The position numbers were made by a program, and so were the translations under genes. This document shows, in pieces, positions 1 to 64,000 of a stretch of DNA of 64,000 nt. The notes below the pieces were generated by a model. That model ran no database searches and was not told the DNA's origin. It saw only the letters and a list, made by a program, of their open reading frames with translations. Location: positions 1,984,001 through 2,048,000 of the forward strand of contig NZ_CP014989.1 in the NCBI RefSeq assembly GCF_001685415.1, written 5' to 3'. This DNA is from Serinicoccus hydrothermalis (lineage in GTDB: Bacteria > Actinomycetota > Actinomycetes > Actinomycetales > Dermatophilaceae). How positions within the stretch are numbered: the stretch's first letter is position 1; each line of letters starts with the position of its first letter.

Positions 1-504
1 CCCGAAGCCGCCCATCCCCAGCAGCTGCGCCGCGGCGCGGGGCCGCGCGAGCAGGTCGGTGGGCCGGTCGAAGTTGCGGTCGATGAAGTGCGGCATCTCG
101 GCGAGGTAGAGCCGCCGCAGCCAGCCCACGAACTCGTCGAAGGCGGCGGCGTCCACGCTGCCGCACTCGCGGTGGATCTCCTCGCGCATCGCCGCGTGCC
201 CGTGGCGCACGTCGAGCGTGGAGCCGTCGGCGAAGAAGCCGCGGTATGCCGGGTCCAGCAGCTGCAGGTCGAGCCGCTGCGCGAGGCTGGACCCCGCGGC
301 CCGCAGCGGCCGGTCGATGAGGTCCGGCATCGTCAGCACGGTCGGCCCGGTGTCGAAGGTGAAGCCGTCCTGGGTCAGCCTGCCGGCGCGGCCGCCCGGG
401 ACCTGCTCGCGCTCGACGACGGTGACCCGGTGCCCGTCCCCGACGAGGTGGCAGGCCGCGGCGAGGCCGGCGAGGCCGGCGCCCACGACGACGACGTGGC
501 TCAT
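1..504 (-). CDS. crtI: Phytoene desaturase CrtI, N-terminal part (cut by window edge)
   Basis: Carotenoid biosynthesis: FAD-dependent desaturation of phytoene. The 168 visible N-terminal residues open with the dinucleotide-binding glycine motif VVGAGLAGLAAA, followed by VVEREQVPGGRAGR and then FDTGPTVLTMP, the order typical of CrtI-type desaturases; the rest lies beyond base 1. Its ATG (502-504) overlaps the stop of the upstream idi-crtE fusion as ATGA, so the two are translationally coupled and in one transcription unit. A phytoene synthase gene is expected nearby but is not in the window. A related CrtI-type oxidase or ketolase cannot be excluded from this fragment alone. Confidence 0.88.
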   Translation of the reverse strand, partial: MSHVVVVGAGLAGLAAACHLVGDGHRVTVVEREQVPGGRAGRLTQDGFTFDTGPTVLTMPDLIDRPLRAAGSSLAQRLDLQLLDPAYRGFFADGSTLDVRHGHAAMREEIHRECGSVDAAAFDEFVGWLRRLYLAEMPHFIDRNFDRPTDLLARPRAAAQLLGMGGFG

Positions 505-2153
505 GCGTCCCGCCAGGCGATCGCCCGCGCCTCGTCCCGGAGGCCGGCGATGCCCTCCTCGGTGAGCACCTCGGCCCGCAGCGCCGCCTCGGCGGCGTCG
601 ACCTCCTCGCGGATACGGCGCTCGAGGTCCTCCCGGACCCCGGCCGCCTCCAGCGCCTCCTGGAGCACGCCGACGTCCTCCGGGCGGGCCTGCGGCGTGC
701 CGACCCGGGCCATCGCGACGGCGGCCGGGCCGGTCAGCCGCTCGGCGCCGAGCACCCAGATGAGGGTGGTCTTGCCCTCGCGCAGGTCGTCGCCGCTGGG
801 CTTGCCGGTGCGCTCCGGCTCGCCCCAGACCCCGAGGATGTCGTCGCGCCAGGCGAAGGCGCGCCCGAGGTGGGCGCCGTAGCGGGCGAGCGCCTCGCGC
901 TGCTCGCCGTCGGCGATCGCGGCCAGCGAGCCCAGCTGCAGCGGCCGCTCGATCGTGTAGGCCCCCGACTTCAGGGCGGCCACCGCCTCGGCGTGCGCGA
1001 GGTCGCGCCGCCCGGCGGCCGAGCCGGTGAGGTCGCCCCGCTGGCCGGCGATGAGCTCGAGGTTGAGCTCGTACCAGTAGTCGCGCATCGTGCTCGGCAG
1101 CGGGTTGACCAGGCGGTCGGCGAGCGAGTGCGCCAGGTCACCCAGCAGGATCGCGATGTTCTCGCCGAAGCGCTCGGCGCGTCCCTGGCCGCCGCCCTCC
1201 CGGTGCCGGCGGGCCGCGACGACGTGCGCGGCGGGCGCACCCCGACGGGTGGACGACTGGTCCATGACGTCGTCGTGGATGAGCGCGAAGGCGTGCAACA
1301 TCTCCAGGGCCGCGGCGACGCGCACGAGGTCGTCGTGGCACTGCGAGCCGATCCGTCCCCCGGCGGCGACGAAGCCCCAGTGCCCCATGCGCGGTCGGAG
1401 CCGCTTGCCGCCGTTGGTCAGCACCGTCCGCAGCCAGCTGGGCAGGTCGCCCGGCTCGTCGGCGATGAGGTCGACCGGTCCGCTCGGGGCGAGGGTCGAC
1501 CACATCTGGTCGGTCCACGAGCACTCGGCCCCGATGAGCGACTCGACCCGGTCCAGCGTGGCCCGGGGCTCGGCACCACCCACCGCAGGCTCGGACGAGG
1601 GCTCCGGCCGCAGCGGGAGCCGCAGCCGCTCGGACTCCAGCAGCGTGACCTGCTCGACGGCCCAGGGGCTGTAGACACCCGGGACGGAGCGGACACCGGC
1701 GACGAGGTCGTCCCAGGGCACCCAGAGGTGCTCGGCCACCTCGGCCGGGTCGGGCGACAGCTCGCCGCTCACCCGACCGGCGAAGACGGGGCACACCTCG
1801 TTCTCGACGATCCCGCTCGCGTCGGTCGCGCGGTAGGCGAAGGTGGGCAGCGCCAGCTGCAGGTCGGTGACGTCGACGCCCAGCTCCTCCTGCAGCCGCC
1901 GGCGCACCGCGGCGCCGTCCGGCTCGTCCGGTCGGGGGTGGCCGCAGCAGGCGTTGGTCCACACGCCCGGCCAGGTCCGCTTGGACAGCGCCCGCCGGGT
2001 GAGCAGCACCCGACCCTGGTCGTCGAAGAGGTAGAGCGAGAAGGCGCGGTGCCGGGGCGTCGAGGTCGTGTGCACATCTGGCCGGGGGGCCGTGCCGACC
2101 GGGTGCCCGTCGTCGTCCACGAGCACGACCAGGTCCTGGACCACGTCGGTCAT
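501..2153 (-). CDS. idi-crtE: IPP isomerase / geranylgeranyl-diphosphate synthase fusion
   Basis: A 550-residue two-domain isoprenoid enzyme. Residues 1 to about 180 are a type I (Nudix) isopentenyl-diphosphate isomerase with the active-site segment TNACCGHP near residues 67-73 and IVENEVCPVF, which carries the catalytic Glu region of the family. From about residue 200 a polyprenyl synthase follows: GGKRLRPRM, first Asp-rich motif LIHDDVMDQSSTRRG, and second motif AWRDDILGVWG with TGKPSGDDLREGKTT. Together they would isomerise IPP to DMAPP and condense the units to GGPP for carotenoids. The ATG at 2153 has an AAGGGAG ribosome site about 6 nt upstream. The stop overlaps the crtI start. The two activities are usually separate proteins; no stop or frame break separates the domains here. 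Confidence 0.93.
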   Translation of the reverse strand: MTDVVQDLVVLVDDDGHPVGTAPRPDVHTTSTPRHRAFSLYLFDDQGRVLLTRRALSKRTWPGVWTNACCGHPRPDEPDGAAVRRRLQEELGVDVTDLQLALPTFAYRATDASGIVENEVCPVFAGRVSGELSPDPAEVAEHLWVPWDDLVAGVRSVPGVYSPWAVEQVTLLESERLRLPLRPEPSSEPAVGGAEPRATLDRVESLIGAECSWTDQMWSTLAPSGPVDLIADEPGDLPSWLRTVLTNGGKRLRPRMGHWGFVAAGGRIGSQCHDDLVRVAAALEMLHAFALIHDDVMDQSSTRRGAPAAHVVAARRHREGGGQGRAERFGENIAILLGDLAHSLADRLVNPLPSTMRDYWYELNLELIAGQRGDLTGSAAGRRDLAHAEAVAALKSGAYTIERPLQLGSLAAIADGEQREALARYGAHLGRAFAWRDDILGVWGEPERTGKPSGDDLREGKTTLIWVLGAERLTGPAAVAMARVGTPQARPEDVGVLQEALEAAGVREDLERRIREEVDAAEAALRAEVLTEEGIAGLRDEARAIAWRDA

Positions 2154-2310
2154 CTGAGCTCCCTTGCGGTCGGTGAATCCCAGAGGACAAGCGTAGGTCG
2201 CATGTCACCCGGGCGCGCGTCGCGGGTCCACAGCAGGCTCACAGGTCGAGCATGGGTGGGTGCTACGAGACGTCCCTAGCGTGGACGCCACCCACACCGA
2301 GGAGAGCGCC

Positions 2311-3306
2311 GTGACACCCAGGACCCAGCCACGCACCTACGAGGGGCGCGCCCTGCCGCGCCCCGACGACGACCTCGAGGACCAGGGCCTGGCCTTCGAC
2401 GTCGGCACGCTGCTCAGCCGCCGCCGCGCGCTGGGCCTGCTCGGGCTCGGTGCGGCCGGCACGCTGGCCGCCTGCGCCCCGGCCAGCAGCGGCTCGACCG
2501 CGGCCTCCTCGAGCACGACCTCGGCGGCGGCGACCACCGCGGACGACGCGGCCGCGACCAGCAGCGCCGACCTCACCGAGATCCCCGACGAGACCGCGGG
2601 CCCCTACCCCGGCGACGGCTCCAACGGCGCCGACGTGCTGGAGCAGAGCGGGGTGGTCCGCTCGGACCTGACCAGCAGCTTCGGTGACTCCGCCGGGGGC
2701 ACGGCCACGGGCATACCCATGACGCTGGAGCTGACCCTGCTCGACATCGCGGCCGGCGGTGGACCGATGACCGGTGCCGCGGTCTACGTCTGGCACTGCA
2801 CCGACAGCGGGCTCTACTCGATGTACTCCTCCGGCGTCGAGGACGAGAACTTCCTGCGCGGTGTCCAGGTCAGCGACGGCGACGGGCTGGTGCGCTTCAC
2901 GAGCATCGTGCCCGGCTGTTACGCCGGCCGGTGGCCGCACATCCACTTCGAGGTCTACCCGGACGAGGCGAGCATCACCGACTCGACCAACGCCGTCAGC
3001 ACCTCGCAGGTCGCGCTGCCGCAGGGCATGTCGGAGACGGTCTACGCCACCAGCGGTTACGAAGGGTCCAGCGCCAACCTCGGCCGGCTCACGCTCGCCA
3101 CCGACAACGTCTTCGGCGACGACGGCGCGGTGCACCAGCTCGCGACCGTCTCGGGCGACACGACCGCGGGGTATGTCGTGCGCCTCACCGTGCCCATCGA
3201 CACGACCACCGCGCCCCAGTCCGGCGGGGCCGGCGGCGGTGGGCAGGGCGGACCCGGCGGTCAGGGAGTCCCGGGCGGGCAGGGCGGGCCTCCCCCGGGA
3301 GGCTGA
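2311..3306 (+). CDS. Secreted intradiol ring-cleavage dioxygenase-like lipoprotein
   Basis: 331 residues from GTG 2311, chosen because GAGGAGAG sits just upstream; an ATG-type start further upstream has no such site. The N-terminus carries a twin-arginine-like SRRRALG, a hydrophobic stretch and a lipobox (LAAC), indicating Tat export and lipidation. A Ser/Thr/Ala-rich linker precedes ETAGPYPGDGSNGADV and the intradiol dioxygenase core: VYVWHCTDSGLYSMY (Tyr ligand) and CYAGRWPHIHFEVY (Tyr plus His-x-His ligands for Fe3+). All four non-haem iron ligands appear present. The tail is Gly/Gln/Pro-rich. Cytosolic family members open catechol or protocatechuate rings; the substrate of this exported branch is unknown. 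Convergent with the next gene, 3 bp apart. Confidence 0.85.
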   Translation: MTPRTQPRTYEGRALPRPDDDLEDQGLAFDVGTLLSRRRALGLLGLGAAGTLAACAPASSGSTAASSSTTSAAATTADDAAATSSADLTEIPDETAGPYPGDGSNGADVLEQSGVVRSDLTSSFGDSAGGTATGIPMTLELTLLDIAAGGGPMTGAAVYVWHCTDSGLYSMYSSGVEDENFLRGVQVSDGDGLVRFTSIVPGCYAGRWPHIHFEVYPDEASITDSTNAVSTSQVALPQGMSETVYATSGYEGSSANLGRLTLATDNVFGDDGAVHQLATVSGDTTAGYVVRLTVPIDTTTAPQSGGAGGGGQGGPGGQGVPGGQGGPPPGG

Positions 3307-3309
3307 GGG

Positions 3310-4671
3310 CTACGGGCAGGCGGTCACCACGTCGTAGACGTCGTCGGAGGTCTCGACCAGGGTGGTCACCGTGGCGTCCCCCTGGCCGAGGTAGTCGTTG
3401 CTGCCGACCGCGTAGAAGGGGTTGTAGGGGTCGACGCCGTAGCTCACGGCACGTCCCGCGCTCTCGTGCTCGGCGTTGGTGGCGCTGCCGCACCACGGGC
3501 CCTCCGGGTCGGTGGGCTCGGGGTCCGTGGGTTCCGGGTCGGACGGCTCCGGATCGGTCGGCTCCGGGTCCGTGGGCTCCGGGTCCGTGGGCTCGGGGTC
3601 GGTCGGTCCGGTCCCGGCCTCGACCCGGCGGTTGTGCTCGAAGAAGAAGTCGGTGAGGTAGGCCGGGTAGTCGATGCTGCTCGTCGAGATGTAGGCGCCG
3701 CCCGGCCCCTCGCCCGCCGGCCAGTTGTGCCCCAGCCCGGTGTTCTGGACCACGGAGACCCGGGGCCCGTCGCCGTCGGAGTAGATCGTCGCGCTCCCGG
3801 CCGTGCTGCTTCCCGGGACCCCTTCCAGGCTCTGCGTGGACACCGTCGAGGCGCCGTAGATGCCTGCCATGATCTGGCCGTTGAGCGTGTTGTAGCCCGG
3901 TGCCACCGTGGCGTCGTTGCTCCCGTAGACCACCGAGGTGAGCTGCGTGCCGAAGGCGTCGGCCCCCGACCCGGCGAAGCCGGTGCAGGTGTTCGTCCCG
4001 GCCGCCTTGCTCGTGGCGACGCTCGAGATCTGGCCGGAGGTGGTGCCGACCGTCGGCCCGGCGTTGATGCCGATGCCCGCGAAGACGTCGGGGGCCAGGC
4101 AGCCCATGACCATGGTCTCCCCACCGCCCGAGGACAGCCCGGACAGGTAGACCTGGTCCGGGTCCAGCCCGAGCGCCTCGCGGTCGGTGAGCTCGTCGAC
4201 CAGGCCGAGGAGGTTGTCGTCGTGCCGCGCCGGGTTGGTCCGCGAGTGGTTGCCGTCGTAGTAGTCCCAGCAGCCGAAGATCACCCCGCCGTTCGGGGCG
4301 TCGGGCAGCGCGACGACCATGCCGTAGTCGTCCGCGGTCTGCTGCCAGTTGGCGCCGGTGCGCAGCGTGGACGCCGTCTGCGCGCAGCCGTGCAGGCTGA
4401 CCATGAGCGCCCGGCCGGAGGAGAGCGCCGGCGCGCTCTGCGGCACGTAGAGCTGCACGGACATGCCGGCGATCGTCTCCGTCGACCACCCCTCGGCGTC
4501 CGACCCGCCGCCACCGCCGCCCCCGCCCTCGCAGCCGGGCAGGGTGTCGAAGGGCGGGTCGCAGGGCAGCGCCTCCGCCGCGGGCAGGGCGCTCACGACC
4601 GGGACCGCGAGGGCGAGGGACAGGACGCCGCCGAGGGCGAGCGCGGGCATACCGGAACGTGGTCTCCGCAT
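3310..4671 (-). CDS. Secreted PHB depolymerase / feruloyl-esterase-like alpha/beta hydrolase
   Basis: 453 residues. A cleavable signal peptide (about residues 1-34) is followed by a Gly-rich stretch and an esterase domain with the oxyanion region SLHGCAQTA and nucleophile elbow G-L-S-S-G (Ser170), typical of the short-chain PHA depolymerase / LpqC / feruloyl esterase group. A late His (GLGHNWPAGEG) can complete the triad. A TDPEP repeat linker (about seven copies, one as SDPEP) joins a small Cys-containing C-terminal domain that resembles the putative polymer-binding tails of extracellular depolymerases. GGAGG lies about 8 nt before the ATG. Likely degrades an extracellular polyester or plant ester; the substrate cannot be fixed from sequence. 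Confidence 0.85.
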   Translation of the reverse strand: MRRPRSGMPALALGGVLSLALAVPVVSALPAAEALPCDPPFDTLPGCEGGGGGGGGSDAEGWSTETIAGMSVQLYVPQSAPALSSGRALMVSLHGCAQTASTLRTGANWQQTADDYGMVVALPDAPNGGVIFGCWDYYDGNHSRTNPARHDDNLLGLVDELTDREALGLDPDQVYLSGLSSGGGETMVMGCLAPDVFAGIGINAGPTVGTTSGQISSVATSKAAGTNTCTGFAGSGADAFGTQLTSVVYGSNDATVAPGYNTLNGQIMAGIYGASTVSTQSLEGVPGSSTAGSATIYSDGDGPRVSVVQNTGLGHNWPAGEGPGGAYISTSSIDYPAYLTDFFFEHNRRVEAGTGPTDPEPTDPEPTDPEPTDPEPSDPEPTDPEPTDPEGPWCGSATNAEHESAGRAVSYGVDPYNPFYAVGSNDYLGQGDATVTTLVETSDDVYDVVTACP

Positions 4672-4790: not shown

Positions 4791-5906
4791 TCAGCGCTGC
4801 GGCAGCTCCCGCTTCTCCGCGCCGACGTACTCGCTCAGCGGGCGGATGAGGGCGTTGGCACCCTGCTGCTCCCGGATGTGCGCCGTCCACCCGGTGATCC
4901 GGGCCATGACGAACAGCGGCGTGAACATCGGGATGTCGAAGCCCATGAGGTGGTAGGTCGGACCGGCCGGGTAGTCGAGGTTGGGGTGGATGTTCTTGCG
5001 CTCGAGCATGGCGTCCTTGAGCCGGTCGTAGGTCGCCAGCAGGTCGGCGTGGTCGTCGCCCGCGAAGGTGCGCAGCGCGGCGTCCATCGTCGGCACCCGC
5101 GAGTCACCGGTCTTGTAGACCCGGTGGCCGAAGCCCATGATCTTGCGCTTCTCCGCCAGCGCGGTGTCCAGCCACGCCTCGGCGTTGTCGGCGTCGCCGA
5201 CCTCGCTGAGCATGTGCATGACCGCCTCGTTGGCGCCACCGTGCAGCGGGCCCTTGAGCGCCCCGATCGCCGCGGTGACGGCGCTGTAGACGTCGGAGAG
5301 GGTCGAGGTGACCACGCGGGCGGTGAAGGTCGAGGCGTTGAAGGAGTGCTCGGCATACAACGTCATCGACGTCTCGAAGGCCGTGACCGTGGCCTCGTCG
5401 GGGGCCTCCCCGAAGGTCATGGCCAGGAAGTTCTCCGAGTAGCCCAGCGCCGGGTCCGGCGCGATCGGCTCCTGGCCGCGGCGGCGGCGCTGCTCGATCG
5501 CGACGATCGTCGGGAGCTGGGCGAAGAGCGAGACGGAGACCGCGAGCGTGTCCTCCGGGTCGTCGGACTCCGAGCGCGGGTCGTTGGCCCCGAGCCAGCT
5601 CACGGCGGTGCGCACCGAGTCCATGGGGTGGCAGTCCTCGGGCAGCCCGCGCAGGACCTCGACCAGCTCGTCCGGGACGGCGCGCAGCCCGCGCTCGGTC
5701 TCGGTGAAGGTGGCGAGCTCGTCCTGCGTCGGCAGCTCACCGTGCCACAGCAGCCAGGCGACCTCCTCGAAGGAGCACTGCGCGGCGAGGTCCTGGACCG
5801 GGTAGCCGCGGTAGATGAGGGTGCTGGTCTCGGCGTCGACCTTGGAGACGGAGGTCTCGTCGACGACGACGCCGGCGAGCCCGCGGTGGATGGTGGTGTC
5901 GGACAT
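4791..5906 (-). CDS. prpC: 2-Methylcitrate synthase
   Basis: Condenses propionyl-CoA with oxaloacetate in the methylcitrate cycle. 371 residues, the length of the short bacterial citrate synthase family. Seen: LIYRGYPVQDLA near the N-terminus, LKGPLHGGANEAVM (catalytic His region), MGFGHRVYKTGDSRV (second His) and PAGPTYHLMGF. ATG at 5906 with GGAAGGG just upstream. It is the last gene of prpD-prpB-prpC, only 14 nt after prpB, which is why methylcitrate rather than ordinary citrate synthase is called. No clear terminator is visible in the 119 bp downstream. Confidence 0.95.
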   Translation of the reverse strand: MSDTTIHRGLAGVVVDETSVSKVDAETSTLIYRGYPVQDLAAQCSFEEVAWLLWHGELPTQDELATFTETERGLRAVPDELVEVLRGLPEDCHPMDSVRTAVSWLGANDPRSESDDPEDTLAVSVSLFAQLPTIVAIEQRRRRGQEPIAPDPALGYSENFLAMTFGEAPDEATVTAFETSMTLYAEHSFNASTFTARVVTSTLSDVYSAVTAAIGALKGPLHGGANEAVMHMLSEVGDADNAEAWLDTALAEKRKIMGFGHRVYKTGDSRVPTMDAALRTFAGDDHADLLATYDRLKDAMLERKNIHPNLDYPAGPTYHLMGFDIPMFTPLFVMARITGWTAHIREQQGANALIRPLSEYVGAEKRELPQR

Positions 5907-5920: not shown

Positions 5921-6841
5921 TCAGTGGTCGCCGGGGACGGCGAAGTCGAAGATGTCGGCGTCGAAGCTGCTGTAGTCGGCATACCGCAGCACCTCGTAGA
6001 GACGGGCGCGGGTCTGCATCTGCGGGACGAGCTCGGCCTGCGTGCCCTCCTGCGCGATCGTGGCGAGCGAGGCCTCGATGGCGCCCATCGCCAGGCGCTG
6101 CAGGGTGACCGGGTAGATCACCATGGACACGCCGGCGTCCGCGAGCTGGGCGGTCGTGAACAGCTCGCTCTGCCCGAACTCGGTCATGTTGGCGAGGATG
6201 GGCACGTCGAGCGCCGTGGCGAAGGCCTCGAACTCGGAGAGGTCCTTGAGCGCCTCGGGGAAGATGACGTCCGCCCCCGCGTCGGCGTAGGCCTTCGCCC
6301 GCTCCAGCGCCGCGTCGAAGCCCTCGACGGCGCGGGCGTCGGTGCGGGCGCAGAGGACGAACTCGGGGTCGGTGCGCGCCACGACCGCGGCCCGCACCCG
6401 GCGCAGCATCTCCTCGGTGGAGACGACCTGCTTGCCGTCGAGGTGGCCGCAGCGCTTGGGGTTGACCTGGTCCTCCAGGTGGGCCCCGGCCAGCCCGGCG
6501 CGCTCCAGGCCGGTGACGGTCCGCGCGACGTTGCTCGGCTCGCCGAAACCGGTGTCCGCGTCGATGAACGCGGGGAGCGAGGTCATACCCGCGATCTCCT
6601 GGCCGCGCCCGATGACCTCGCTGGCCGTCGTCAGCCCGATGTCGGGCAGCCCGCGCTCGGCCGCGAGGACCGAGCCGGAGATGTAGACGCCCTCGAAGCC
6701 GGCCTGCTCGATGAGGGGCACGGACAGCGGCGTGAACGCACCGACATACCGCTGGATCCGCCCGGACGCGAGCCCGGCGCGGAACGCCTGACGGCGCCGG
6801 GTCGGCGCGAGGACGCCGTCGCTCGCCTCGGCCGCGCTCAC
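5921..6841 (-). CDS. prpB: 2-Methylisocitrate lyase
   Basis: Cleaves 2-methylisocitrate to pyruvate and succinate, the last step of the methylcitrate cycle. 306 residues of the isocitrate lyase/PEP mutase superfamily: [32 protein letters not shown] (metal-binding Asp), and [12 protein letters not shown], where KRCGH carries the active-site Cys. The GTG start (6839-6841) overlaps the prpD stop as GTGA, implying translational coupling in the prp operon. Confidence 0.95.
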
Positions 6842-8343
6842 CGGAAGATCCCCTGCGGGCCGACCTCGAGGGTGAGGGCGTCGGCGACGACGTTGAGCTC
6901 GTGCAGCCGTCCGGCCGGGAGGTCGGCCAGGCCGGAGACGACCTCGAGGAAGCGGTCCTGCTCGGCCGGGCTCGCGACGCCCTCGGCGAGGGTGCGGAAC
7001 TTGGTGACGTACTGCTCCCGCGCGAAGGGCCGGGCCCCGGCCGGGTGCGCGTCCGCGACCGCGAGCTCATCCGCGACCACCGTGCCGTCCTGGAGCGTGA
7101 TCTCGACCCGGCCGCCGAAGGCCGGCTCGGTCGCGTGGTAGGCCTCGGTCCAGCGTGGGTCCTCCACGGTGCTGATCTTGTGCCACAGCTCGACGGTCGA
7201 GGGGCGGCCCGCGCGCTCGGGGGTGTAGGAGTCGACGTGGTGCCAGTCGCCGTCCTCGAGCGCCACCGCGAAGATGTACATGATCGAGTGGTCCAGGGTC
7301 TCGCGGGAGGCCTTGGGGTCCATCTTCTGGGGGTCGTTGGCCCCGGTGCCGATGACGTAGTGCGTGTGGTGGCTGGTCTGGATGAGGACCGACTCGACCT
7401 GCGACAGGTCCGGCACCTGCTCGCGCAGCCGCACCGCGAGGTCGATGAGCGCCTGGCTCTGGTACTCGGCGGAGTACTCCTTGGTGTAGGTCCGCAGGAT
7501 CGCCCGCTTGGGCTCGCCCGGGCCGGGCAGCGGCACCTGGTAGTGCGCGTCCTTGCCGTCCAGCATCCAGGCGATGACGCCGTCCTCGCCCTCGTAGATC
7601 GGCGCCGGCGCACCCTCACCCCGCACCGCCCGGTCGAAGGCCTCGATCGCGGCCTTGCCGGCGTAGGCCGGGGCATACGCCTTCCAGCTGGAGATCTCGC
7701 CCTTGCGCGACTGCCGGGTCGCGGTCGTCGTGTGCAGCGCCTGGCCGATCGCCTGGTAGGTCACCTCGGTCGGCGCCCCGAGCAGGGTCCCGAGCCCGGC
7801 CGCGGCGGACGGGCCGAGGTGGGCAACGTGGTCGATCTTGTGCGCGTGCAAGCTGATCGCGCGGACCAGGTCGACCTGGATCTCGTATCCGGTCGCGAGC
7901 GCCCGCAGCAGGCTCGCACCGTCGGCGCCGACGTGCTGGGCGACCGCCAGGATCGGCGGGATGTTGTCACCGGGATGGGAGTACTCCGCGGCGAGGAAGG
8001 TGTCGTGGTAGTCCAGCTCGCGGACCGCGGTGCCGTTGGCCCAGGCCGCCCACTCCGGGGAGACCCGCGCCTCCGGGTCCCCGAAGATCGCCGCACCCTG
8101 CGCGCCGTCGGCAGGGGTGTGCCGGTGGGCGAGCGCCTGGTCGCGCGCCACGACCGCGGGGCGCCGGTTGACCGAGGCGAGCGCGACCGAGGCGTTGTCG
8201 ATGACCCGGTTGATCACCATGTCGGCGACCTCGGCCTCGACGGCGACCGGGTCGGCGGCGACCTCCGCGATCTTCCAGGCGAGCTGGTCCTCCCGGGCCA
8301 GCTCGTCGGCGCTGGGGTGGACGCGCACGTCGTGCGTGATCAT
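6838..8343 (-). CDS. prpD: 2-Methylcitrate dehydratase (MmgE/PrpD family)
   Basis: Dehydrates 2-methylcitrate to methylaconitate in propionate catabolism. 501 residues from ATG 8343 (MITHDV), chosen over in-frame upstream codons because GAGGAGA lies 6-7 nt before it. Family features: N-terminal [38 protein letters not shown] and [14 protein letters not shown], and the conserved C-terminal [10 protein letters not shown]. First gene of the prp operon; the 248 bp upstream, shared with the divergent antiporter gene, contains a 60-bp dispersed repeat. No PrpR-type regulator gene is adjacent. Confidence 0.94.
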
Positions 8344-10457: not shown

Positions 10458-12125
10458 GTGACCCACACGCCGGCCGTCGTCGTGCTCTCCGGCACGCACC
10501 TGGACACCCTGCTGCCGCAGTTCGCGCGCTACAGCGGGGAGTATGCCGTCATCCCCACCAGCACCCCGCTCGCCGCGAAGCAGCTCATCTCCACCATGGT
10601 CGCCGACGGCATACCGATCGCGCTGCTCGTCGTCGACCACCCGATCGCGGGGGTGGAGACCGAGCACGTGCTCGCCGCGCTGCGCCAGCTGGTGCCGACC
10701 GCGCGCCGGATGGCCGTCTCGCACTGGGACCACTTCCGGCAGGGCGCCGCGGAGATGCGCACGCCCGTCGCCACCGGCGCCATCGACGCCTTCATGCTCA
10801 TGCCGCGCGGGAAGCGGGACGAGGAGTTCCACGTCGCCGTCGGCGAGCTGCTCAACGACTGGAACGCCACCGTCGCCACCCCGGAGGTGGAGACGATCCA
10901 GATCATCACCCCGGAGAAGGACGCGCTCACCCGCGAGCTGCTGGATTACCTCGGCCGGGTCGGCATGCCGACGGGGGTGCACACGCCGGACAGCGAGACC
11001 GGCGAGCGGGTGCTGGCGCGGCTGGGCGAGGACGAGCCGCGGTGGCCGGTCGTCGCCACCCACGACGGGCAGGTCGCGGCGGTCCGGTCGGTCCGTGACG
11101 TCGCCACCCGGCTCTACGGCCGCCCGGACGAGATCGAGCTCGACCAGGTCGCGGACGTCGCCGTCGTCGGTGCCGGCCCGGCGGGGCTGGCCGCCGCGGT
11201 CTACGCCTCGAGCGAGGGACTGCGCACGGTGGTGCTCGAGTCCGAGGCCATCGGGGGCCAGGCCGGGACGAGCTCGATGATCCGCAACTACCTCGGCTTC
11301 CCGCGCGGCATCTCGGGTATGCGCCTGGCCCAGCGGGCGCGCCTGCAGGCGATCCGCTTCGGCACGCAGTTCTACACGGGGTGGCCGGCCGTCGAGCTCG
11401 TCCCGGGGCGGGACGGCGAGCCGCACCGGGTGGTCACCGAGGGCGGCGACGTGCGGGCGCGCACCGTCGTCATCGCGACCGGCGTGGAGTACCGCCGCCT
11501 CGGCATCGAGCCGCTCGAGGAGCTGGTCGGCCGGGGCGTGCACTATGGGGCGGCGATGGCGGCCTCACGGGAGATGGACGGCCGGGACGTCGTCGTCGTG
11601 GGCGGGGGCAACTCTGCGGGGCAGGCCGCGGTGCACCTGGCCAGGTTCGCCCGGTCGGTGGCCGTCGTGGTGCGGCGCGACGACCTCTCCTCGACGATGT
11701 CGGCATACCTCATCAAGGAGCTGGACGCGAACCCCCGGATCACCGTCTACGGCCGGGCGCAGGTGGTCGACGGCGGGGGCGAGGACCGGCTGGAGTGGCT
11801 CGAGTTCGAGCACCGGGACAAGGAGCACCGCACGAGGCTGGAGGTGGGCGGGCTGTTCCTGCTCATCGGCGCCGACCCGCACTGCGACTGGCTGCCGGCG
11901 GAGCTGGCGCGGGACGAGCGGGGCTTCGTGCTCACCGGGCGGCAGGTGCCGCAGGAGCGGTGGGACGACGAGCTGCCGCCCGCGCCGCTGGCAACCAGCG
12001 TGCCGGGCGTCTTCGCCGCCGGGGACATCCGTGCCGGGAGCATGAAGCGCGTGGCCTCGGCGACCGGAGAGGGCGCGTCCGTGGTGTCCCTCGTGCACGG
12101 CTACCTCGACGACCGGCGCCGCTGA
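10458..12125 (+). CDS. FAD-dependent thioredoxin-reductase-like protein with REC-like and glutaredoxin-like domains, no redox CxxC
   Basis: 555 residues. About 1-130 resembles a receiver fold (LLVVDHPIAG supplies a candidate acceptor Asp). About 140-225 looks like a glutaredoxin/thioredoxin fold without cysteines (IQIITPEKDALT, WPVVATHDG). From 230 onward it is a TrxR-type flavoprotein: VAVVGAGPAGLAAAVYAS, GGQAGTSSMIRNYLGFP, second nucleotide motif VVVVGGGNSAGQAA, and PGVFAAGDIR. Where TrxR has the redox CxxC (GVSxCAxCDG), this protein reads GVHYGAAMAAS, so both cysteines are gone; hence not called trxB. The GTG start lies 15 bp after the antiporter-UBP gene. Probably a redox or NAD(P)H-sensing partner. 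Confidence 0.85.
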   Translation: MTHTPAVVVLSGTHLDTLLPQFARYSGEYAVIPTSTPLAAKQLISTMVADGIPIALLVVDHPIAGVETEHVLAALRQLVPTARRMAVSHWDHFRQGAAEMRTPVATGAIDAFMLMPRGKRDEEFHVAVGELLNDWNATVATPEVETIQIITPEKDALTRELLDYLGRVGMPTGVHTPDSETGERVLARLGEDEPRWPVVATHDGQVAAVRSVRDVATRLYGRPDEIELDQVADVAVVGAGPAGLAAAVYASSEGLRTVVLESEAIGGQAGTSSMIRNYLGFPRGISGMRLAQRARLQAIRFGTQFYTGWPAVELVPGRDGEPHRVVTEGGDVRARTVVIATGVEYRRLGIEPLEELVGRGVHYGAAMAASREMDGRDVVVVGGGNSAGQAAVHLARFARSVAVVVRRDDLSSTMSAYLIKELDANPRITVYGRAQVVDGGGEDRLEWLEFEHRDKEHRTRLEVGGLFLLIGADPHCDWLPAELARDERGFVLTGRQVPQERWDDELPPAPLATSVPGVFAAGDIRAGSMKRVASATGEGASVVSLVHGYLDDRRR

Positions 12126-17492: not shown

Positions 17493-17582
17493 GGGCTGAT
17501 CGTGCCACGCCCGTATCCAGGCGGCCCCGACATCGCTCTGAGAGGGTAAGCGCAGGCATACCCGAGGAGGCAGGAGAGCCCG

Positions 17583-57336: not shown

Positions 57337-58044
57337 ATGAGCCTGGCCGCCACCGTGCGCAACAGCCCCGCCACCCGGGCCGGCCTGTCGATCGCGGTCG
57401 CCACGGGTGCCTACGGCATCTCCTTCGGTGCGCTCGGCACGGCGAGCGGGCTCGGCGTCCTCGAGGTCTGCGCCCTGAGCCTGCTCACCTTCTCCGGCGG
57501 GTCGCAGTTCGCCTTCGTTGGCGTCGTCGCCGGTGGCGGGTCGCCCGCCTCGGCCGCCGGGGCGTCCACGTTGCTCGGCCTGCGCAACGGGGTCTACGCG
57601 ATGCAGATGAACGCCCTGCTCCGGCCCCGGGGCTGGTGGAAGCTCGCCGCGGCGCAGGTGACCATCGACGAGTCCACCGCCACGGCGCTGGCCCAGGAGG
57701 ACGCCGAGGAGCAGCGGCGCGGCTTCTGGGTCGCGGGCGTGGGCATCTTCCTGCTATGGAACCTCATGACCCTCGTCGGCGCGCTGGCCGGCGAGGCGCT
57801 GGGCGACCCCCAGCGCTGGGGCCTGGACGGGGCGGCGGTGGCCGCCTTCCTCGGGCTGCTCTGGCCCCGTCTCCGCTCGCGCGAGCCCTGGGCGATCGCC
57901 GCGGTGTGCGCGGTGGTGACGGTGCTGTGCATACCCCTGGTCCCCCCGGGCGTGCCGATCCTCGTGGCCGCCGCGGTCGCCGCCGGCATCGGCTGGTGGC
58001 GGCTGCGCCGTGACCGCGAGCTCGCGACGGAGCAGCCGGCATGA
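57337..58044 (+). CDS. azlC: Branched-chain amino acid exporter large subunit AzlC
   Basis: 235 residues, six or more helices; AGLSIAVATGAYGISFGALG, LTFSGGSQFAFVGVVAGGGS and LGLRNGVYAMQMN are AzlC/YgaZ family features. Exports branched-chain amino acids or analogues with AzlD. Overlaps azlD as ATGA. Confidence 0.92.
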   Translation: MSLAATVRNSPATRAGLSIAVATGAYGISFGALGTASGLGVLEVCALSLLTFSGGSQFAFVGVVAGGGSPASAAGASTLLGLRNGVYAMQMNALLRPRGWWKLAAAQVTIDESTATALAQEDAEEQRRGFWVAGVGIFLLWNLMTLVGALAGEALGDPQRWGLDGAAVAAFLGLLWPRLRSREPWAIAAVCAVVTVLCIPLVPPGVPILVAAAVAAGIGWWRLRRDRELATEQPA

Positions 58045-58356: not shown

Positions 58357-58423
58357 CCTGGGCAAGGGTATGCACGGCGGAGGCCGTCGAGAAGCACGCC
58401 TACGGTGCACAACCTTGCCCAGG
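58357..58423. terminator. Long imperfect inverted repeat after azlD
   Basis: CCTGGGCAAGG (58357-58367) pairs with CCTTGCCCAGG (58413-58423), followed inward by TGCAC/GTGCA (58371-58375, 58405-58409) with a short internal loop. The hairpin is 67 nt and sits in the 97-bp gap between azlD and the hydrolase gene; terminator or REP-like element. Confidence 0.6.
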
Positions 58424-58449: not shown

Positions 58450-59406
58450 GTGACCACGAGGAAAGTCCGCCGCGTGGCCTGGCTCCACGCGGTGCTCGGC
58501 CTCGTCGCGGTGGTGGTGGCCGCCTGGATCTGGCTGACCCGGGCGGGCGTGCTGCTGGCCGGCCACCCGGCCTACCTCGTCTCCGTCACCGTCGTCGGCC
58601 TCGCCGGGCTGGCCCTGCTGGTCCTGGCGGTGCGCGGAGCGCGCGGCCGGGCAGGTCGGGCGCGGGCGCCCGGATGGCTCCGCGTGCTCGGCCGTGTCGC
58701 CCTCGCCCTGGTGACGGTCCTCGTGGTCGGCGCCCTGGCGTGGTTGCGACCCTTCCCCGCGAGCCCGGAGGCGACCGGCCTGATGTCCGGGGACGCGGGC
58801 GTGGACGTGACCGACTCGGCCGGTCGGATCACGCTCACACCGACCGGGGCGGCGCCGGACGACGGGCTGATCTTCCAGCCGGGCGCGCGGGTCGACCCAC
58901 GGGCATACCTGCCGCTGCTCACGGAGGTCGCCGCGCAGGGCCACCTCGTGGTCGTCGTCAAGCAGCCCTTCGACATCGGCTTCACCGCGCTCGGGGCGCC
59001 GGAGGGCATCATCGAGGACCACCCGGACGTGTCGCGGTGGAGCCTCGGCGGGCACAGCCTCGGTGGCGTCGTGGCCTCGGCGTATGCCCAGGACTACCCG
59101 GCCGAGGTCGACGGCCTGGTCCTGTGGGCGTCCTATCCCCTGGGTGACCTCAGCGACCGCGACGACCTGGCCGCGAGCACGATCTTCGGCAGCAACGACG
59201 GGCTGGCCACGCCCGCGGACATCGAGGCGAGCCGCCCGGACCTGCCGCCGGGCACCGAGGTGGTCGAGATCCCCGGTGGCGTGCACGCCTTCTTCGGTGA
59301 CTACGGCGAGCAGCCCGGGGACGGGACGCCGGGAGTCACCCGCGAGGCGGCCCAGGACCAGATCGTCGAGGCCAGCCTGGCGCTGCTGGCGGCCGCCGGG
59401 TCCTGA
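58450..59406 (+). CDS. Membrane-anchored alpha/beta hydrolase
   Basis: 318 residues from GTG 58450. Three N-terminal membrane helices (to about residue 100) followed by an alpha/beta-hydrolase_5-like domain: GLIFQPGARVDPRAYLPLL, VVVVKQPFDIGF, nucleophile elbow LGGHSLGGVVAS, VLWASYP, and late IPGGVHAFFGDYG (His). Catalytic domain probably outside. Substrate unknown. Confidence 0.85.
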   Translation: MTTRKVRRVAWLHAVLGLVAVVVAAWIWLTRAGVLLAGHPAYLVSVTVVGLAGLALLVLAVRGARGRAGRARAPGWLRVLGRVALALVTVLVVGALAWLRPFPASPEATGLMSGDAGVDVTDSAGRITLTPTGAAPDDGLIFQPGARVDPRAYLPLLTEVAAQGHLVVVVKQPFDIGFTALGAPEGIIEDHPDVSRWSLGGHSLGGVVASAYAQDYPAEVDGLVLWASYPLGDLSDRDDLAASTIFGSNDGLATPADIEASRPDLPPGTEVVEIPGGVHAFFGDYGEQPGDGTPGVTREAAQDQIVEASLALLAAAGS

Positions 59407-59577: not shown

Positions 59578-61122
59578 ATGGATCTCGCCGGTCCCGTCCT
59601 GATCGTCGCGTTCGTCGTCATCGTCCTGGTCGTCCTGGGGATGGTCGCCTTCGTCTACGCCAAGGTGCGGTTCAAGATCGCCACCCCCGACGAGGCGCTC
59701 ATCATCACCGGACGCAAGAGCGGCACCCCCGTCATCAACCCCGAGACCGGCGACGAGACCACCGACCTGTCCGGCCAGCGGGTCGTCATCGGTGGCGGCA
59801 CCTTCGTCAAGCCGATCTTCGAGCAGGTGGCGCGGCTGTCCCTCGCCTCCCAGAGCTTCCCGGTCACGGCCGAGGACGCCACCACCAAGAGCGGTGTCGG
59901 CGTCACCCTGCGCAGCATCGCCGTCGTCAAGGTCGGGGGGACCGAGCGGATGGTGCGCGCCGCGGCGCAGCGCTTCGCCGGGCGCAGCCAGGAGCAGGTC
60001 ATCGAGCAGCAGACCAGCGAGGTGCTCGTCGGTGTGCTGCGCACGATCGCGGGCACGCTGACGGTCGAGTCGATCCTCTACGAGCGCCAGGACTTCTCCA
60101 AGGAGGTCAAGGACATCGCCGTGCCGATGCTGGCCGAGCGCGGCCTCATCCTGGAGAACTTCGAGATCCAGACCGTCGAGGACTCCGGCGACTACATCCG
60201 CAACCTGGGCCGTCCCCGCGCCGCCGCAGTGGCCCGCGACGCCGAGATCGCCGAGGCGCAGGCCCGGCAGGAGAGCACCGAGCGCTCCAACGAGTCCGCC
60301 GTGCAGATCGCGGAGTCCAACAAGGCGCTCGCGCTGCGCAACGCGCAGATCGCCCGCGAGACCGCTACGGCCGAGGCCGAGGCGGGGGCGGCGCAGGAGC
60401 GCGCCGAGGCCGAGGCGCAGCAGTCGGTGCTCGTCGAGCAGGAGCAGGTGGCCCAGCGCCGGGCGGCGCTGCGCGAGCAGGAGCTGCAGACCGAGGTCCG
60501 CAAGCCGGCCGAGGCGCGCAAGTACGAGGCCGCCCAGGAGGCGGACGCCCGCAAGTATGCCGCGGAGCAGGAGGCCGAGGCCGCCAAGACCACCGCGATC
60601 CGCAAGGCGGAGGCCGAGGCCCAGCGCACGACGGCCCAGGCCGACGCCGAGGCCGCGGCCCTCCGGGCGCGCGCCGAGGCCGCGCTGGTGGAGCAGCAGC
60701 GGGGCGCCGAGGGTGCGCTGGCGAAGGCCCGCGCCGAGGCCGACGGGGTGCAGGCGCGCGGCGAGGCCGAGGCGGCGGCCGAGCGGGCCAAGGGTGAGGC
60801 GCGGGGTGCCGCGATCAAGGCGGAGGCCGACGCCTACCAGACCTTCCCCGAGTCGGCACGACTGCAGATGGTGCTCGACGCGCTGCCCAAGATGGCGCAG
60901 CCCTACGCCGACGCCCTCGGCAGCATCGACGACATCACCGTCATCGACCGCGACGGGGCTTCCCGGCTCTCCGGCCAGGTCTCGACCGGGGTGCAGGAGC
61001 TGGCCAAGCAGCTGAAGTCGCAGACCGGCATCGACCTGCTCCACATGCTGCGGTCCGAGCGGTCCGCTGACGACGGGCCGGCCGGCACGGCCGTGACCGC
61101 GGACAGCGCCGTCGACGGCTGA
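59578..61122 (+). CDS. Flotillin-like SPFH membrane scaffold protein
   Basis: 514 residues: N-terminal membrane hairpin/helix (VLIVAFVVIVLVVLGMVAFVYA), SPFH/band-7 domain (about 30-220: PDEALIITGRKSG, LRTIAGTLTVESILYERQDF, GLILENFEIQTVED), and a long Ala/Glu/Arg coiled coil of flotillin type (about 230-420) with EAEAE repeats. Organises membrane microdomains. No NfeD gene is next to it. Confidence 0.92.
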   Translation: MDLAGPVLIVAFVVIVLVVLGMVAFVYAKVRFKIATPDEALIITGRKSGTPVINPETGDETTDLSGQRVVIGGGTFVKPIFEQVARLSLASQSFPVTAEDATTKSGVGVTLRSIAVVKVGGTERMVRAAAQRFAGRSQEQVIEQQTSEVLVGVLRTIAGTLTVESILYERQDFSKEVKDIAVPMLAERGLILENFEIQTVEDSGDYIRNLGRPRAAAVARDAEIAEAQARQESTERSNESAVQIAESNKALALRNAQIARETATAEAEAGAAQERAEAEAQQSVLVEQEQVAQRRAALREQELQTEVRKPAEARKYEAAQEADARKYAAEQEAEAAKTTAIRKAEAEAQRTTAQADAEAAALRARAEAALVEQQRGAEGALAKARAEADGVQARGEAEAAAERAKGEARGAAIKAEADAYQTFPESARLQMVLDALPKMAQPYADALGSIDDITVIDRDGASRLSGQVSTGVQELAKQLKSQTGIDLLHMLRSERSADDGPAGTAVTADSAVDG

Positions 61123-61143: not shown

Positions 61144-61950
61144 TCAGCGCAGGTGGCTGGCGCCGTTGAGGTCCAGCACCGCCCCGGAGGCCCACTCCGC
61201 CCGCGGGTCGGCCAGGGCGAGCACGGCATCGGCGACCTCGTGGGGCTGGGCGACCCGGCCGAACGGGCTCTGCGCCTTCGTGGCGGCCCCTCGGTCCCCG
61301 GCCAGCGCATACCCGGCCATCTCGGTCTCGATGAAGCCCGGTGCCACCGAGGTCACCGCGATGCCGTGCCGACCCAGCCGCTGCGCCATGGACTGGCCGA
61401 AGGAGTGCAGGCCGGCCTTGCTCGCACCGTAGGCCGGGATGTCCGGTTCGCCCCGGTAGGCGCCGCGGCTGCCGACGTTGACGATGCGGCCGACGGGGAC
61501 GCCGTCCGCGGGTGAGACGTCGATCATGTGGCGGGCCACCTGCCAGGTCAGGTGGGCCGGGCCGAGCAGGTTGGTCTCCAGGGTGCGCCGCCAGATCTCC
61601 ACCCATTCGGGGTATGACGTCTCCTCGAGCGGGTGGTCACCGCGCCGGCTCCCGCCCTCCGACGGGGCGGCGAGCATCGCCGCGTTGTTCACCAGGACGT
61701 CGACCCGGCCCAGGGCGTCGACCGACTCGTCTGCCAACCGCTCGACGGCGTCCGGGTCGGCGAGGTCGGCCTGCACGACGGTGTGCCCGTCACCGGGGAG
61801 GGAGCGGCATACCTCGTGGGCGGCCGCCTCGCTGCCGAGGTAGTGGACGACGACCCGGTCGCCCCGCGCCGCGAAGGCCCGGGCCACTGCGGCCCCCACG
61901 CCCCGGGAGGAGCCGGTGACCAGGACGCCGCGGGAGGGGTGGGAGCTCAT
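61144..61950 (-). CDS. Short-chain dehydrogenase/reductase
   Basis: 268 residues, Rossmann fold: VLVTGSSRGVGAAVARAF (TGxxxGxG), VDVLVNNAAML (NNAG-like), Tyr-x-x-x-Lys in IPAYGASKAGLHSF, and PGFIETEMAGYAL. Cofactor choice is probably NADP(H) from the Ser-Arg after the Gly motif. Resembles FabG-like reductases; an insertion (SEGGSRRGDHPLEE) is unusual. Substrate unknown. Convergent with flotillin. Confidence 0.9.
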   Translation of the reverse strand: MSSHPSRGVLVTGSSRGVGAAVARAFAARGDRVVVHYLGSEAAAHEVCRSLPGDGHTVVQADLADPDAVERLADESVDALGRVDVLVNNAAMLAAPSEGGSRRGDHPLEETSYPEWVEIWRRTLETNLLGPAHLTWQVARHMIDVSPADGVPVGRIVNVGSRGAYRGEPDIPAYGASKAGLHSFGQSMAQRLGRHGIAVTSVAPGFIETEMAGYALAGDRGAATKAQSPFGRVAQPHEVADAVLALADPRAEWASGAVLDLNGASHLR

Positions 61951-62241: not shown

Positions 62242-62846
62242 CAGACCAGACCGTCGACGTCAGCGCGCAGCTTCGTGCCGTTGGCGAAGGCCTGGGCGAT
62301 CGCTGCGAGCAGCAACCCCCCGACCATCCATCCGAACGAGAACTCGAAAGCGAAGGCGCGCACATCTCTGGCCATGAGGATCTTCGCAGTGGCGACCGCT
62401 GTGACGAAGTCGGCCACGATCGGCACCACCACCAGCAGCAGAGCCATCACTCTCAACCGCCACACATTGATCCGGGTGAAGGGCTCTCCACGGCCCATGT
62501 CCCGCAGCAGACGCGTCACCAGGACGGCACCCCAGACCATCGCGGCCAGGGACAGCACCTGAGGGGCCATCAGCAGGGCGAAGTGGCCCGCCGACACGCC
62601 GTCGACCAGCACCTGTGCATCCGGCATCCCCACCACACGCCCCGTGCCTGCGGCACCCGCGTCGACCTCGAGCGGGACGCCCACGAGGGTGACCTGCCGG
62701 CGCAGCATCCAGTCCAGGCTGATGAAGAGCCCGTATGCCGCCGACACACCGACGGCCAGCCAGAGCACCGCCGTCGTCGCGATCTTGTCGGCGCGGTCGA
62801 AACGAGCCCAGTCCTTGCGGTCACGTCGGTCCTCGGATGCACGCAT
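62241..62846 (-). CDS. DUF2975 membrane protein
   Basis: 201 residues from ATG 62846 (GGGAGGA upstream). Four predicted helices: ATTAVLWLAVGVSAAYGLFISL, HFALLMAPQVLSLAAMVWGAVLVT, VMALLLVVVPIVADFVTAV and GWMVGGLLLAAIAQAF, with the family RGEPFTRINVWRLR segment. Function unknown; coupled to the XRE regulator. Confidence 0.88.
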   Translation of the reverse strand: MRASEDRRDRKDWARFDRADKIATTAVLWLAVGVSAAYGLFISLDWMLRRQVTLVGVPLEVDAGAAGTGRVVGMPDAQVLVDGVSAGHFALLMAPQVLSLAAMVWGAVLVTRLLRDMGRGEPFTRINVWRLRVMALLLVVVPIVADFVTAVATAKILMARDVRAFAFEFSFGWMVGGLLLAAIAQAFANGTKLRADVDGLV

Positions 62847-62912: not shown

Positions 62913-62933
62913 TGTCATGCAAGCGGGTATGCG

Positions 62934-63052: not shown

Positions 63053-63107
63053 GAGGGGTATGCAGTTGTGCGCCCGTCACCGGGCGCGGGACGGACCGGG
63101 TCCGGGG

Positions 63108-63451: not shown

Positions 63452-63481
63452 TTGCACGATTTGTAGCAGACCTACTACATT
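63452..63481 (+). promoter_or_regulatory. Promoter with operator dyad for the ABC ATPase gene
   Basis: TTGCAC (63452-63457) and TACATT (63476-63481), 18-bp spacer, with the ATG only 6 nt after the -10, so probably leaderless. The spacer contains GTAGCAGACCTAC (63463-63475), a GTAG-N5-CTAC dyad of the kind bound by GntR/TetR-type repressors. Confidence 0.6.
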
Positions 63482-63487
63482 CCGTGC

Positions 63488-64000
63488 ATGGAGAACGAAC
63501 CCGTGATCGAGTGCCGTGCGCTCGTCATGGCCTACGGCGACCACGTCGTGCTGGACGGCGTGGACCTCACCGTCACCCGCGGCCAGGTGGTGGCCCTGCT
63601 CGGTCCGAACGGCGCCGGCAAGACGACGACCGTCGAGATCCTCGAGGGATTCCGCCACCCCTCGCGCGGACAGGTACGCGTGCTGGGGGCGGACCCCGCG
63701 TCGGCACCGGAGTCGTGGCGCTCACGGGTGGGGGTCGTGCTGCAGAGCTGGCGCGACCACGGCACCTGGAAGGTCCGTGACCTGGTCGACGTCATCGGCG
63801 CCTACTACGCCCCTTACGGCACTGCGCGGACTCCCCGCCCCTGGCCCTCCGAGGACCTCCTCGCCCGGGTGGGTCTGGCCGACCACGCCGGCAGGCGTAT
63901 CGACAAGCTCTCCGGAGGGCAGCGTCGCCGGCTGGACGTCGCCATCGGACTGGTGGGCCGCCCCGAGCTGCTCTTTCTCGACGAGCCGAGCACCGGCCTC
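63488..64000 (+). CDS. ABC transporter ATP-binding protein, N-terminal part (cut by window edge)
   Basis: 171 residues up to the window end, frame open. Walker A LLGPNGAGKTTTVE, Q-loop VGVVLQSWRD, signature LSGGQRRRLDVAIGL and Walker B LLFLDEPSTGL. Matches the daunorubicin/ABC-2-type exporter ATPases; a permease gene should follow outside the window. The dyad in its promoter suggests a dedicated repressor. Confidence 0.92.
   Translation, partial: MENEPVIECRALVMAYGDHVVLDGVDLTVTRGQVVALLGPNGAGKTTTVEILEGFRHPSRGQVRVLGADPASAPESWRSRVGVVLQSWRDHGTWKVRDLVDVIGAYYAPYGTARTPRPWPSEDLLARVGLADHAGRRIDKLSGGQRRRLDVAIGLVGRPELLFLDEPSTGL

Follow-up and report, generated by a model that had tools for sequence, protein, structure and literature searches.

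Why should an actinobacterial chromosome repeat one short word roughly once per kilobase, on both strands? The question was raised by a stretch of Serinicoccus hydrothermalis (family Dermatophilaceae; contig NZ_CP014989.1, positions 1,984,001 to 2,048,000), referred to here as the window (64 kb, G+C 72.6%), and the word was first noticed as the hexamer GTATGC/GCATAC. We counted 66 copies in the window, 34 on the plus strand and 32 on the minus strand, where the original prediction had given about 65; its figure of about 16 expected from base composition agrees with the 15.8 computed, and the hexamer is present at all eight positions that it cited, at an offset of 0 to 12 bases. In 100 dinucleotide shuffles of the window the mean was 8.0 copies and the maximum 18, none reaching 66, and 66 of the 87 TATG tetramers in the window belong to GTATGC. 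The observed/expected ratio was 4.2, 8.2, 6.2, 3.6 and 1.07 under Markov models of orders 0, 1, 2, 3 and 4, respectively. An order-4 ratio near 1 had been proposed as grounds for abandoning the idea, and such a ratio was indeed obtained, both here and in a genome sample of 864 kb in 41 stretches (920 observed vs 862 expected), but the model is blind in this case, because order 4, the maximum for a hexamer, takes the counts of GTATG and TATGC as given, and most copies of these two pentamers are already part of GTATGC.

The hexamer is the core of a longer unit, the octamer GGTATGCC. In the 864-kb sample, hexamers are preceded by G in 71% and followed by C in 87.5% of cases, and the information around 919 of them amounts to 0.38 bits just before, 0.84 bits just after and at most 0.15 bits anywhere further out. 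The word is thus not embedded in a longer conserved repeat of the repetitive extragenic palindrome or miniature inverted-repeat transposable element type. GGTATGCC is the top octamer of the sample at Markov order 3 (560 observed vs 31.8 expected) and has 31 copies in the window vs 0.92 in shuffles. The whole genome, a single contig of 3,597,394 bases, contains 1065 + 1115 = 2180 copies, about one per 1.65 kb, vs 4 + 7 = 11 for the reversed control. The 864-kb sample also contains another repeated word, CAAACCGTG / AAACCGTGC, found 19 to 20 times where about 1 copy is expected.

The two orientations of GGTATGCC are balanced (273 : 287 in the sample), and no replication-strand skew beyond chance was found, the largest two-arc skew being 49/805, with 84% of null draws as large. 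Hexamer density in the 41 stretches averaged 1.07 per kb (range 0.3 to 2.0, variance/mean 2.5), an uneven spread without an evident origin/terminus pattern. We inspected three stretches: conserved core genes, or insertion elements together with respiratory genes, occupied the word-poor ones, and the word-rich one had less conserved genes. Two insertion elements seen there (about 3 kb) had no copy of the word, too little sequence to weigh. With 11% of the sample non-coding, genes contain 447 copies of GGTATGCC, a further 92 are intergenic and 21 straddle gene edges; copies are scarcest in the first and the last tenth of a gene. Between genes there are 1.44 copies per kb in convergent, 1.55 in codirectional and 1.95 in divergent regions, densities that leave a terminator or promoter element unsupported. 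Hexamer pairs less than 60 bp apart are more often inverted (34) than direct (11), yet convergent intergenic regions are not enriched; inverted pairs of uptake sequences commonly, although not obligatorily, serve as terminators. Over 65 orthologues (67 kb) compared with another genome, G019, there are 53 sites in S. hydrothermalis and 46 in G019; 27 of the 53 are shared, while composition-matched words were kept in 40.6% of cases. This is barely above the matched words, and sites therefore turn over while the density stays.

The original prediction attributed the motif to selection on a DNA word, not to codon usage, and held that it forces rare codons; the first claim is supported and the second confirmed. 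We found 449 coding copies of GGTATGCC vs 19.8 under a shuffle of synonymous codons that keeps proteins and codon usage (22.7 times), with all six frames occupied (genes for frame counts were called by a simple script) and with copies between genes as well. In an 884-kb sample, used for the codon and variant analyses, the hexamer accounts for 92 of the 118 ATA codons and 350 of the 514 TAT codons. The choice of codon flips with the preceding base: in the dipeptide Tyr-Ala (TAY-GCC), TAT : TAC is 340 : 57 after G and 19 : 232 after C. Four sites had been described as GGC-ATA-CC, and these letters are present at 10608 and 50799, the hexamer alone occurring at 30687 and 57929. One-letter variants of GGTATGCC stand at 0 to 1.7 of expectation for positions 2 to 6, at 1.6 to 4.7 for positions 7 and 8 (except T at position 8, 0 of 7) and at 9 to 18 times expectation for position 1. 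This pattern looks like mutation balanced against a force for the exact word, and not like a mutational source.

A source by deamination of methylated CpG (GTACGCC to GTATGCC) would account for the depletion of GTACGCC, which stands at 0.32 of expectation. However, the GTACG context is depleted equally (0.25; GTACGT 0.27), and as GTACG is depleted throughout, this reflects a general avoidance of GTAC that needs no specific C-to-T source. Moreover, the 685 coding copies of GTATGCC and 86 of GTACGCC exceed the 307 expected for both together, and deamination is rejected as the source of GGTATGCC. Codon bias is excluded as the cause of the word, and mutation is unlikely. In its own right, the strong avoidance of GTAC in this genome (GTACG at 0.25 of the codon-shuffle expectation) looks as if GTAC were a restriction target.

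In the order-wide sample, the word belongs to one family. Across 148 sampled genomes of Dermatophilaceae (labelled Gnnn, with genera gnn), GGTATGCC ranges from 6 to 2180 copies, and among the 31 genomes of the genus from 38 to 2180. In 228 genomes from 18 other families of the order there are at most 136 copies, mostly 1 to 5 times the control, showing that within this order-wide sample GGTATGCC is abundant only in Dermatophilaceae. By TadA, the relatives of the window's genome include an Ornithinimicrobium assembly (65% identity), Flexivirga, Luteipulveratus, Leekyejoonella and Mobilicoccus, as well as Intrasporangium, Terrabacter and Terracoccus; (C/G)GTATGCC was present in stretches of about 20 kb from Flexivirga, Terrabacter, Terracoccus and Intrasporangium. 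Counts divided the family sample into 105 word-bearing, 35 word-less and 8 unclear genomes, a word-less class that rests on the words counted and may conceal others. Seven genera (g16, g31, g33, g34, g17, g27 and g40) were assigned to the word-bearing class by hand, and G078 is slightly above the threshold although the rest of g3 is word-less. In the word-poor G009 (38 copies genome-wide), 4 copies fall on one 20-kb stretch (L258, contig C79), a cluster perhaps due to a transferred block of DNA or to a draft in which genomes are mixed.

Some lineages poor in GGTATGCC have a word of their own. A search of 40 to 60 kb from each of 17 GGTATGCC-poor genomes found a different leading word in 9 and no convincing one in 8, and two alternatives, CGAAGGGGG and CGGATGCCG, were counted genome-wide. 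Every genome sampled from the neighbouring genera g33 (3) and g34 (14), 17 in all, has 797 to 1939 copies of CGAAGGGGG, and the other 131 family genomes have 11 to 80. CGGATGCCG, apparently of two origins, has 968 to 2347 copies in the six sampled genomes of g17 (2), g27 (1) and g40 (3), and 48 to 448 in the other 142. Two of the g40 genomes bear both words (GGTATGCC 523 and 508 beside CGGATGCCG 1011 and 968), and the third has 125 copies of GGTATGCC beside 2347 of CGGATGCCG. In G045 (g16) and G114 (g31) the preferred word is CGTATGCC(G). CGTACGCC is a less certain dialect. It is convincing in g36 (10.6 times the codon shuffle in G117, 5.7 times in G065) but weak elsewhere (2.1 to 4.3 times in G053, G054, G102 and Luteipulveratus), since an excess of CGTACG words is not peculiar to this family: 18 loci from other Actinobacteria (L152 and others) have more of them than the codon-shuffle expectation, the top one being CGTACGGC (82 vs 21). 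GGTATGCCG, CGTATGCCG, CGTACGCCG and CGGATGCCG are one to three letters apart, and CGAAGGGGG is more distant and is not a C-to-T product of CpG. The case against a C-to-T origin is weaker for the CGGATGCC dialect, and for CGGATGCCG as a derivative of CGGACGCCG, than for GGTATGCC: GGATGCCG and GGACGCCG together number 33 + 16 vs 35 expected jointly in G056, 25 + 4 vs 12.7 in G118 and 11 + 8 vs 13.7 in G101. Apart from these words, G054 (L103, L104) has long C runs, with CCCCCCCC found 24 times vs 1.4 expected in 40 kb.

The words cluster on a quick-search tree of 48 rows built from TadA and the helicase next to it, in which some placements rest on long branches: 12 changes are required vs a mean of 18.2 after shuffling, with none of 200 shuffles as low. 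GGTATGCC is widespread and deep, losses are scattered, CGAAGGGGG has a single origin (support 98) and CGGATGCC apparently arose twice. We conclude that a strong genome-wide word with dialects is real in Dermatophilaceae. Such lineage-specific dialects inside one family also characterize the DNA uptake sequences (DUS) of Neisseriaceae.

As to what such a word might be for, we give a probability of about 0.5 to the reading that GGTATGCC is a word of the DNA-uptake type, kept by biased transformation. Of the three candidates named in the original prediction, an uptake signal fits best, considering the dialects, the restriction to one family and the uptake genes, while a polar segregation site is unsupported in the absence of strand skew. 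DNA carrying the cells' own word would be taken up and recombined more readily, via a ComEA/ComEC channel and a Flp/Tad pilus; this bias in uptake and recombination would then propagate the word in the genome, and an altered reader protein would lead to an altered dialect. The window's genome encodes ComEC and a ComEA-like protein with SLBB and HHH domains; its tad locus comprises flp, TadE, TadE-like and TadA genes together with a DECH helicase. The family matches are close to universal: ComEC in 147 of 148 genomes (the sole miss is a 760-contig draft), the secretion ATPase family that includes TadA in 148 (147 above the cut-off) and the TadE-like pilin family in 148 (143 above the cut-off). 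A type IVa pilus was rejected as the uptake device, PilM_2 being found in just 4 of 148 genomes, and a suspected break of ComEC in the word-poor G009 was merely a contig end. Transformation of Micrococcus luteus requires ComEC and both tad clusters, as described in a section of PMC4322843.

Several results weigh against an uptake word. The machinery is equally universal in the 35 word-less genomes, and with ComEC, secretion ATPase and TadE-like pilin near-universal, uptake genes do not predict the word. The ComEC of the window's genome scores 190.0 vs an NCBIfam cut-off of 190.05, and the ComEA-like protein 94.6 vs 152, even if both are above the Pfam cut-offs for Competence, SLBB and HHH_3. 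Proteins of the locus were also scanned for residues common to both CGGATGCC lineages, a comparison computable for all but two of those examined. It yielded no column in the helicase, TadA, TadB, TadC, TadE or Flp, and one column each in two other proteins of the locus, within the range of control pairs. Neither this convergence scan nor the presence or absence of PilM_2, secretion ATPase and TadE-like pilin yielded a candidate for a ComP-like receptor. The intergenic densities and the poverty of gene ends show no preference for terminators, unlike the case of Pasteurellaceae. Finally, searches of open-licence full texts found no report of natural transformation or competence in Dermatophilaceae or Ornithinimicrobium, and among the results listed nothing describes these words, or such uptake or iterated words in Actinobacteria.

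Three side observations concern the tad locus and the word-rich genomes. The protein at the Flp pilin position (L123:7461-7664) matches Pfam DUF4244 (PF14029), which, from this sequence match, may be this pilin family. The tad locus of L111 (G105) has flp, TadE, TadE-like pilin and helicase, with no tadA, tadB or tadC alongside in the script gene calls. The HK97-type phage portal family PF04860 had no match in any of 30 word-rich genomes.

Uptake words with dialects are known from two Gram-negative families. GGTATGCC shows several of their properties, namely, strong genome-wide over-representation on both strands that is explained by neither codon usage nor replication polarity, and a carrier that encodes natural-transformation machinery, although the last holds for word-less genomes too. 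For the DUS of Neisseriaceae, passages of PMC3630211 describe eight dialects that track phylogeny, two of them in Simonsiella muelleri, and four words at 2257 to 5918 copies per genome. The parallels with what is described there are a short word in one family, high copy number, clade-wise dialects that share letters, occasional genomes with two words, and uptake genes. However, Dermatophilaceae are Gram-positive Actinobacteria with Tad genes, seldom have the PilM_2 family of type IVa-like pili, have 797 to 2347 copies and have no known receptor of the ComP kind. The uptake signal sequences of Pasteurellaceae also number hundreds to thousands of copies and, according to PMC2346458, favour one orientation in reading frames, as does GTATGCC here (408 of 681 coding copies are sense); they are biased to gene ends in the same account, unlike GGTATGCC, for which gene ends are the poorest.

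The word could instead be linked to an enzyme that modifies DNA in a sequence-specific way, or to some other DNA-binding protein, marking self DNA or tuning repair and changing along with the enzyme, in the manner of the highly iterated palindrome HIP1 of cyanobacteria. HIP1 is likewise a genome-wide octamer with lineage variants and losses, and excerpts of PMC4390886 describe such variants and associate highly over-represented HIP words with a matching putative methyltransferase. Dialect shifts of one or two letters would also fit a changed target-recognition domain. Nevertheless, HIP words are palindromes according to the same excerpts and GGTATGCC is not its own reverse complement, and we regard this explanation as unlikely.

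The MrfA/HRQ1-type DECH helicase beside the tad locus (TIGR03817, with MZB and HRQ1 winged-helix domains), present in the stretch for 43 of 49 loci examined, is a lead to a protein that reads the word or to a processing step. Its family score by genus is lower in word-less genera (mean 1055, n=12, vs 1105, n=31; p=3e-4, not tree-corrected), and no such difference exists for the TadE-like pilin (p 0.55). ComEC scores are higher in word-less genomes (160.3 vs 156.0; p 0.004 by genome, 0.1 by genus), whereas by distance, in the opposite direction, the word-less are somewhat further from the word-bearing (0.59 vs 0.48, p 0.07). No full-length helicase was found in the word-less g15 (both genomes) or in G078 (g3). 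The gene has an in-frame stop in G032 and likewise in the word-bearing G045; the other misses are drafts (G036, G059, G061) or a gene split into two pieces (G150). Root-to-tip distance was 1.83 in 18 word-less vs 1.54 in 42 other rows. In three-taxon rate tests of the helicase against other genes of the locus, with no further tree correction, it evolved faster than its neighbours in the word-less G092 (111:35 vs 122:139, p 7e-9), G080 (p 5e-5) and G066 (p 0.002), and in the CGAAGGGGG-bearing G062 (p 3e-4 and 8e-4). However, the excess was not significant in the word-less G104 (p 0.09) and G040 (p 0.63) or in four CGGATGCC comparisons (p 0.07 to 0.55), was uneven in the CGAAGGGGG-bearing G134 (p 0.015 and 0.45) and was seen too in the word-bearing G041 (p 8e-5), G045 (0.014) and G000 (0.019). 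The helicase/ComEC distance ratio over 25 genomes differs marginally (0.83 vs 0.80, p 0.052), and ComEC is fast as well in G105 and g10. The extra changes are distributed over all domains, so that no single domain is the seat of change, and no residue pattern links the helicase to dialect in the two CGGATGCC lineages compared. In Micrococcus, according to part of PMC8467076, two mutants from a screen for comEA-comEC regulation have changes, among many others, in Mlut_18140, annotated as a helicase; by its number it lies next to the tad-2 cluster as given in a section of PMC4322843, and we infer that it belongs to the same family.

Two readings would give this helicase a part. In the first, Dermatophilaceae would tell self from non-self DNA by Flp-pilus/ComEC uptake that favours a genus-specific word read by the tad-linked helicase; lineages losing the word would have let the helicase drift or go, and some that changed it would have remodelled the helicase. 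The protein is a candidate reader only, and this scheme as a whole is doubtful. In the second, GGTATGCC would be a Chi-like site that regulates a helicase of recombination or repair, perhaps this same DECH helicase, acting on chromosomal or incoming DNA. Chi and KOPS (FtsK-orienting polar sequences) are over-represented words of octamer size, as is GGTATGCC, and Chi words are lineage-specific; the missing or fast helicases in word-less genomes and in G062 agree with this. Unlike these polar words, however, GGTATGCC is not co-oriented with replication, and the rate excess is as patchy, and the distance ratio as little changed, as described above. We consider a Chi-like role quite unlikely.

A binding site for a chromosome-organizing (nucleoid or segregation) protein would suit the genome-wide spread, but strand polarity is lacking, density is uneven with no evident origin/terminus pattern, the poor and rich stretches inspected differ in gene content as described above and sites turn over between genomes, all of which makes it improbable. 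A mutational or codon-usage artefact is scarcely credible, given the GTAC and codon evidence, even if less firmly countered for CGGATGCC.

The copies in the window are listed below. Two hexamers lie within a 22-bp direct repeat (ACCGGCCGCACGGTATGCGCCC) at 13100-13165.

Table. Copies of the octamer and of its hexamer core in the 64-kb window
Feature	Position	Strand	Remark
GGTATGCC copy	243..250	+	
GGTATGCC copy	2710..2717	-	
GGTATGCC copy	4646..4653	-	
GGTATGCC copy	5978..5985	-	
GGTATGCC copy	10608..10615	-	predicted GGC-ATA-CC
GGTATGCC copy	11702..11709	-	
GGTATGCC copy	12732..12739	-	
GGTATGCC copy	12789..12796	+	
GGTATGCC copy	14464..14471	-	
GGTATGCC copy	14971..14978	+	
GGTATGCC copy	16495..16502	+	
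GGTATGCC copy	17555..17562	-	
GGTATGCC copy	20268..20275	+	
GGTATGCC copy	20715..20722	-	
GGTATGCC copy	21364..21371	-	
GGTATGCC copy	22857..22864	-	
GGTATGCC copy	23582..23589	+	
GGTATGCC copy	23927..23934	-	
GGTATGCC copy	31045..31052	+	
GGTATGCC copy	37804..37811	-	
GGTATGCC copy	39155..39162	+	
GGTATGCC copy	40564..40571	+	
GGTATGCC copy	42802..42809	-	
GGTATGCC copy	44551..44558	-	
GGTATGCC copy	45001..45008	+	
GGTATGCC copy	46487..46494	+	
GGTATGCC copy	50799..50806	-	predicted at 50812
GGTATGCC copy	55883..55890	-	
GGTATGCC copy	56095..56102	+	
GGTATGCC copy	58902..58909	-	
GGTATGCC copy	61806..61813	-	
GTATGC core only	5353..5358	-	
GTATGC core only	7673..7678	-	
GTATGC core only	9640..9645	+	
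GTATGC core only	10541..10546	+	predicted TAT-GCC
GTATGC core only	11317..11322	+	
GTATGC core only	12298..12303	-	
GTATGC core only	12589..12594	-	
GTATGC core	13123..13128	+	in 22-bp tandem repeat
GTATGC core	13145..13150	+	in 22-bp tandem repeat
GTATGC core only	13669..13674	-	
GTATGC core only	16064..16069	-	
GTATGC core only	17158..17163	-	
GTATGC core only	17684..17689	+	predicted at 17690
GTATGC core only	18612..18617	+	
GTATGC core only	25971..25976	+	
GTATGC core only	26660..26665	+	
GTATGC core only	26967..26972	-	
GTATGC core only	28226..28231	+	
GTATGC core only	30687..30692	-	predicted at 30690
GTATGC core only	30989..30994	-	
GTATGC core only	32558..32563	+	
GTATGC core only	33667..33672	-	
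GTATGC core only	37522..37527	+	
GTATGC core only	42202..42207	+	predicted at 42203
GTATGC core only	49396..49401	+	
GTATGC core only	50397..50402	+	
GTATGC core only	51413..51418	+	predicted at 51415
GTATGC core only	57929..57934	-	predicted at 57930
GTATGC core only	58368..58373	+	
GTATGC core only	59082..59087	+	
GTATGC core only	60555..60560	+	
GTATGC core only	61307..61312	-	
GTATGC core only	62733..62738	+	
GTATGC core only	62927..62932	+	
GTATGC core only	63058..63063	+	

If the uptake reading is true, Dermatophilaceae would be an independent case of uptake words, from Gram-positive Actinobacteria. With three words counted genome-wide in 148 genomes, and with switches, losses and genomes that mix two words, the question of why uptake words evolve, by drive or by adaptation, would become testable in a new clade. 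The same 148 genomes are a large comparative material for finding the reader protein. For the family itself, an uptake word predicts natural competence in a large group of bacteria and, from the dialect that each strain bears, which DNA it should accept.

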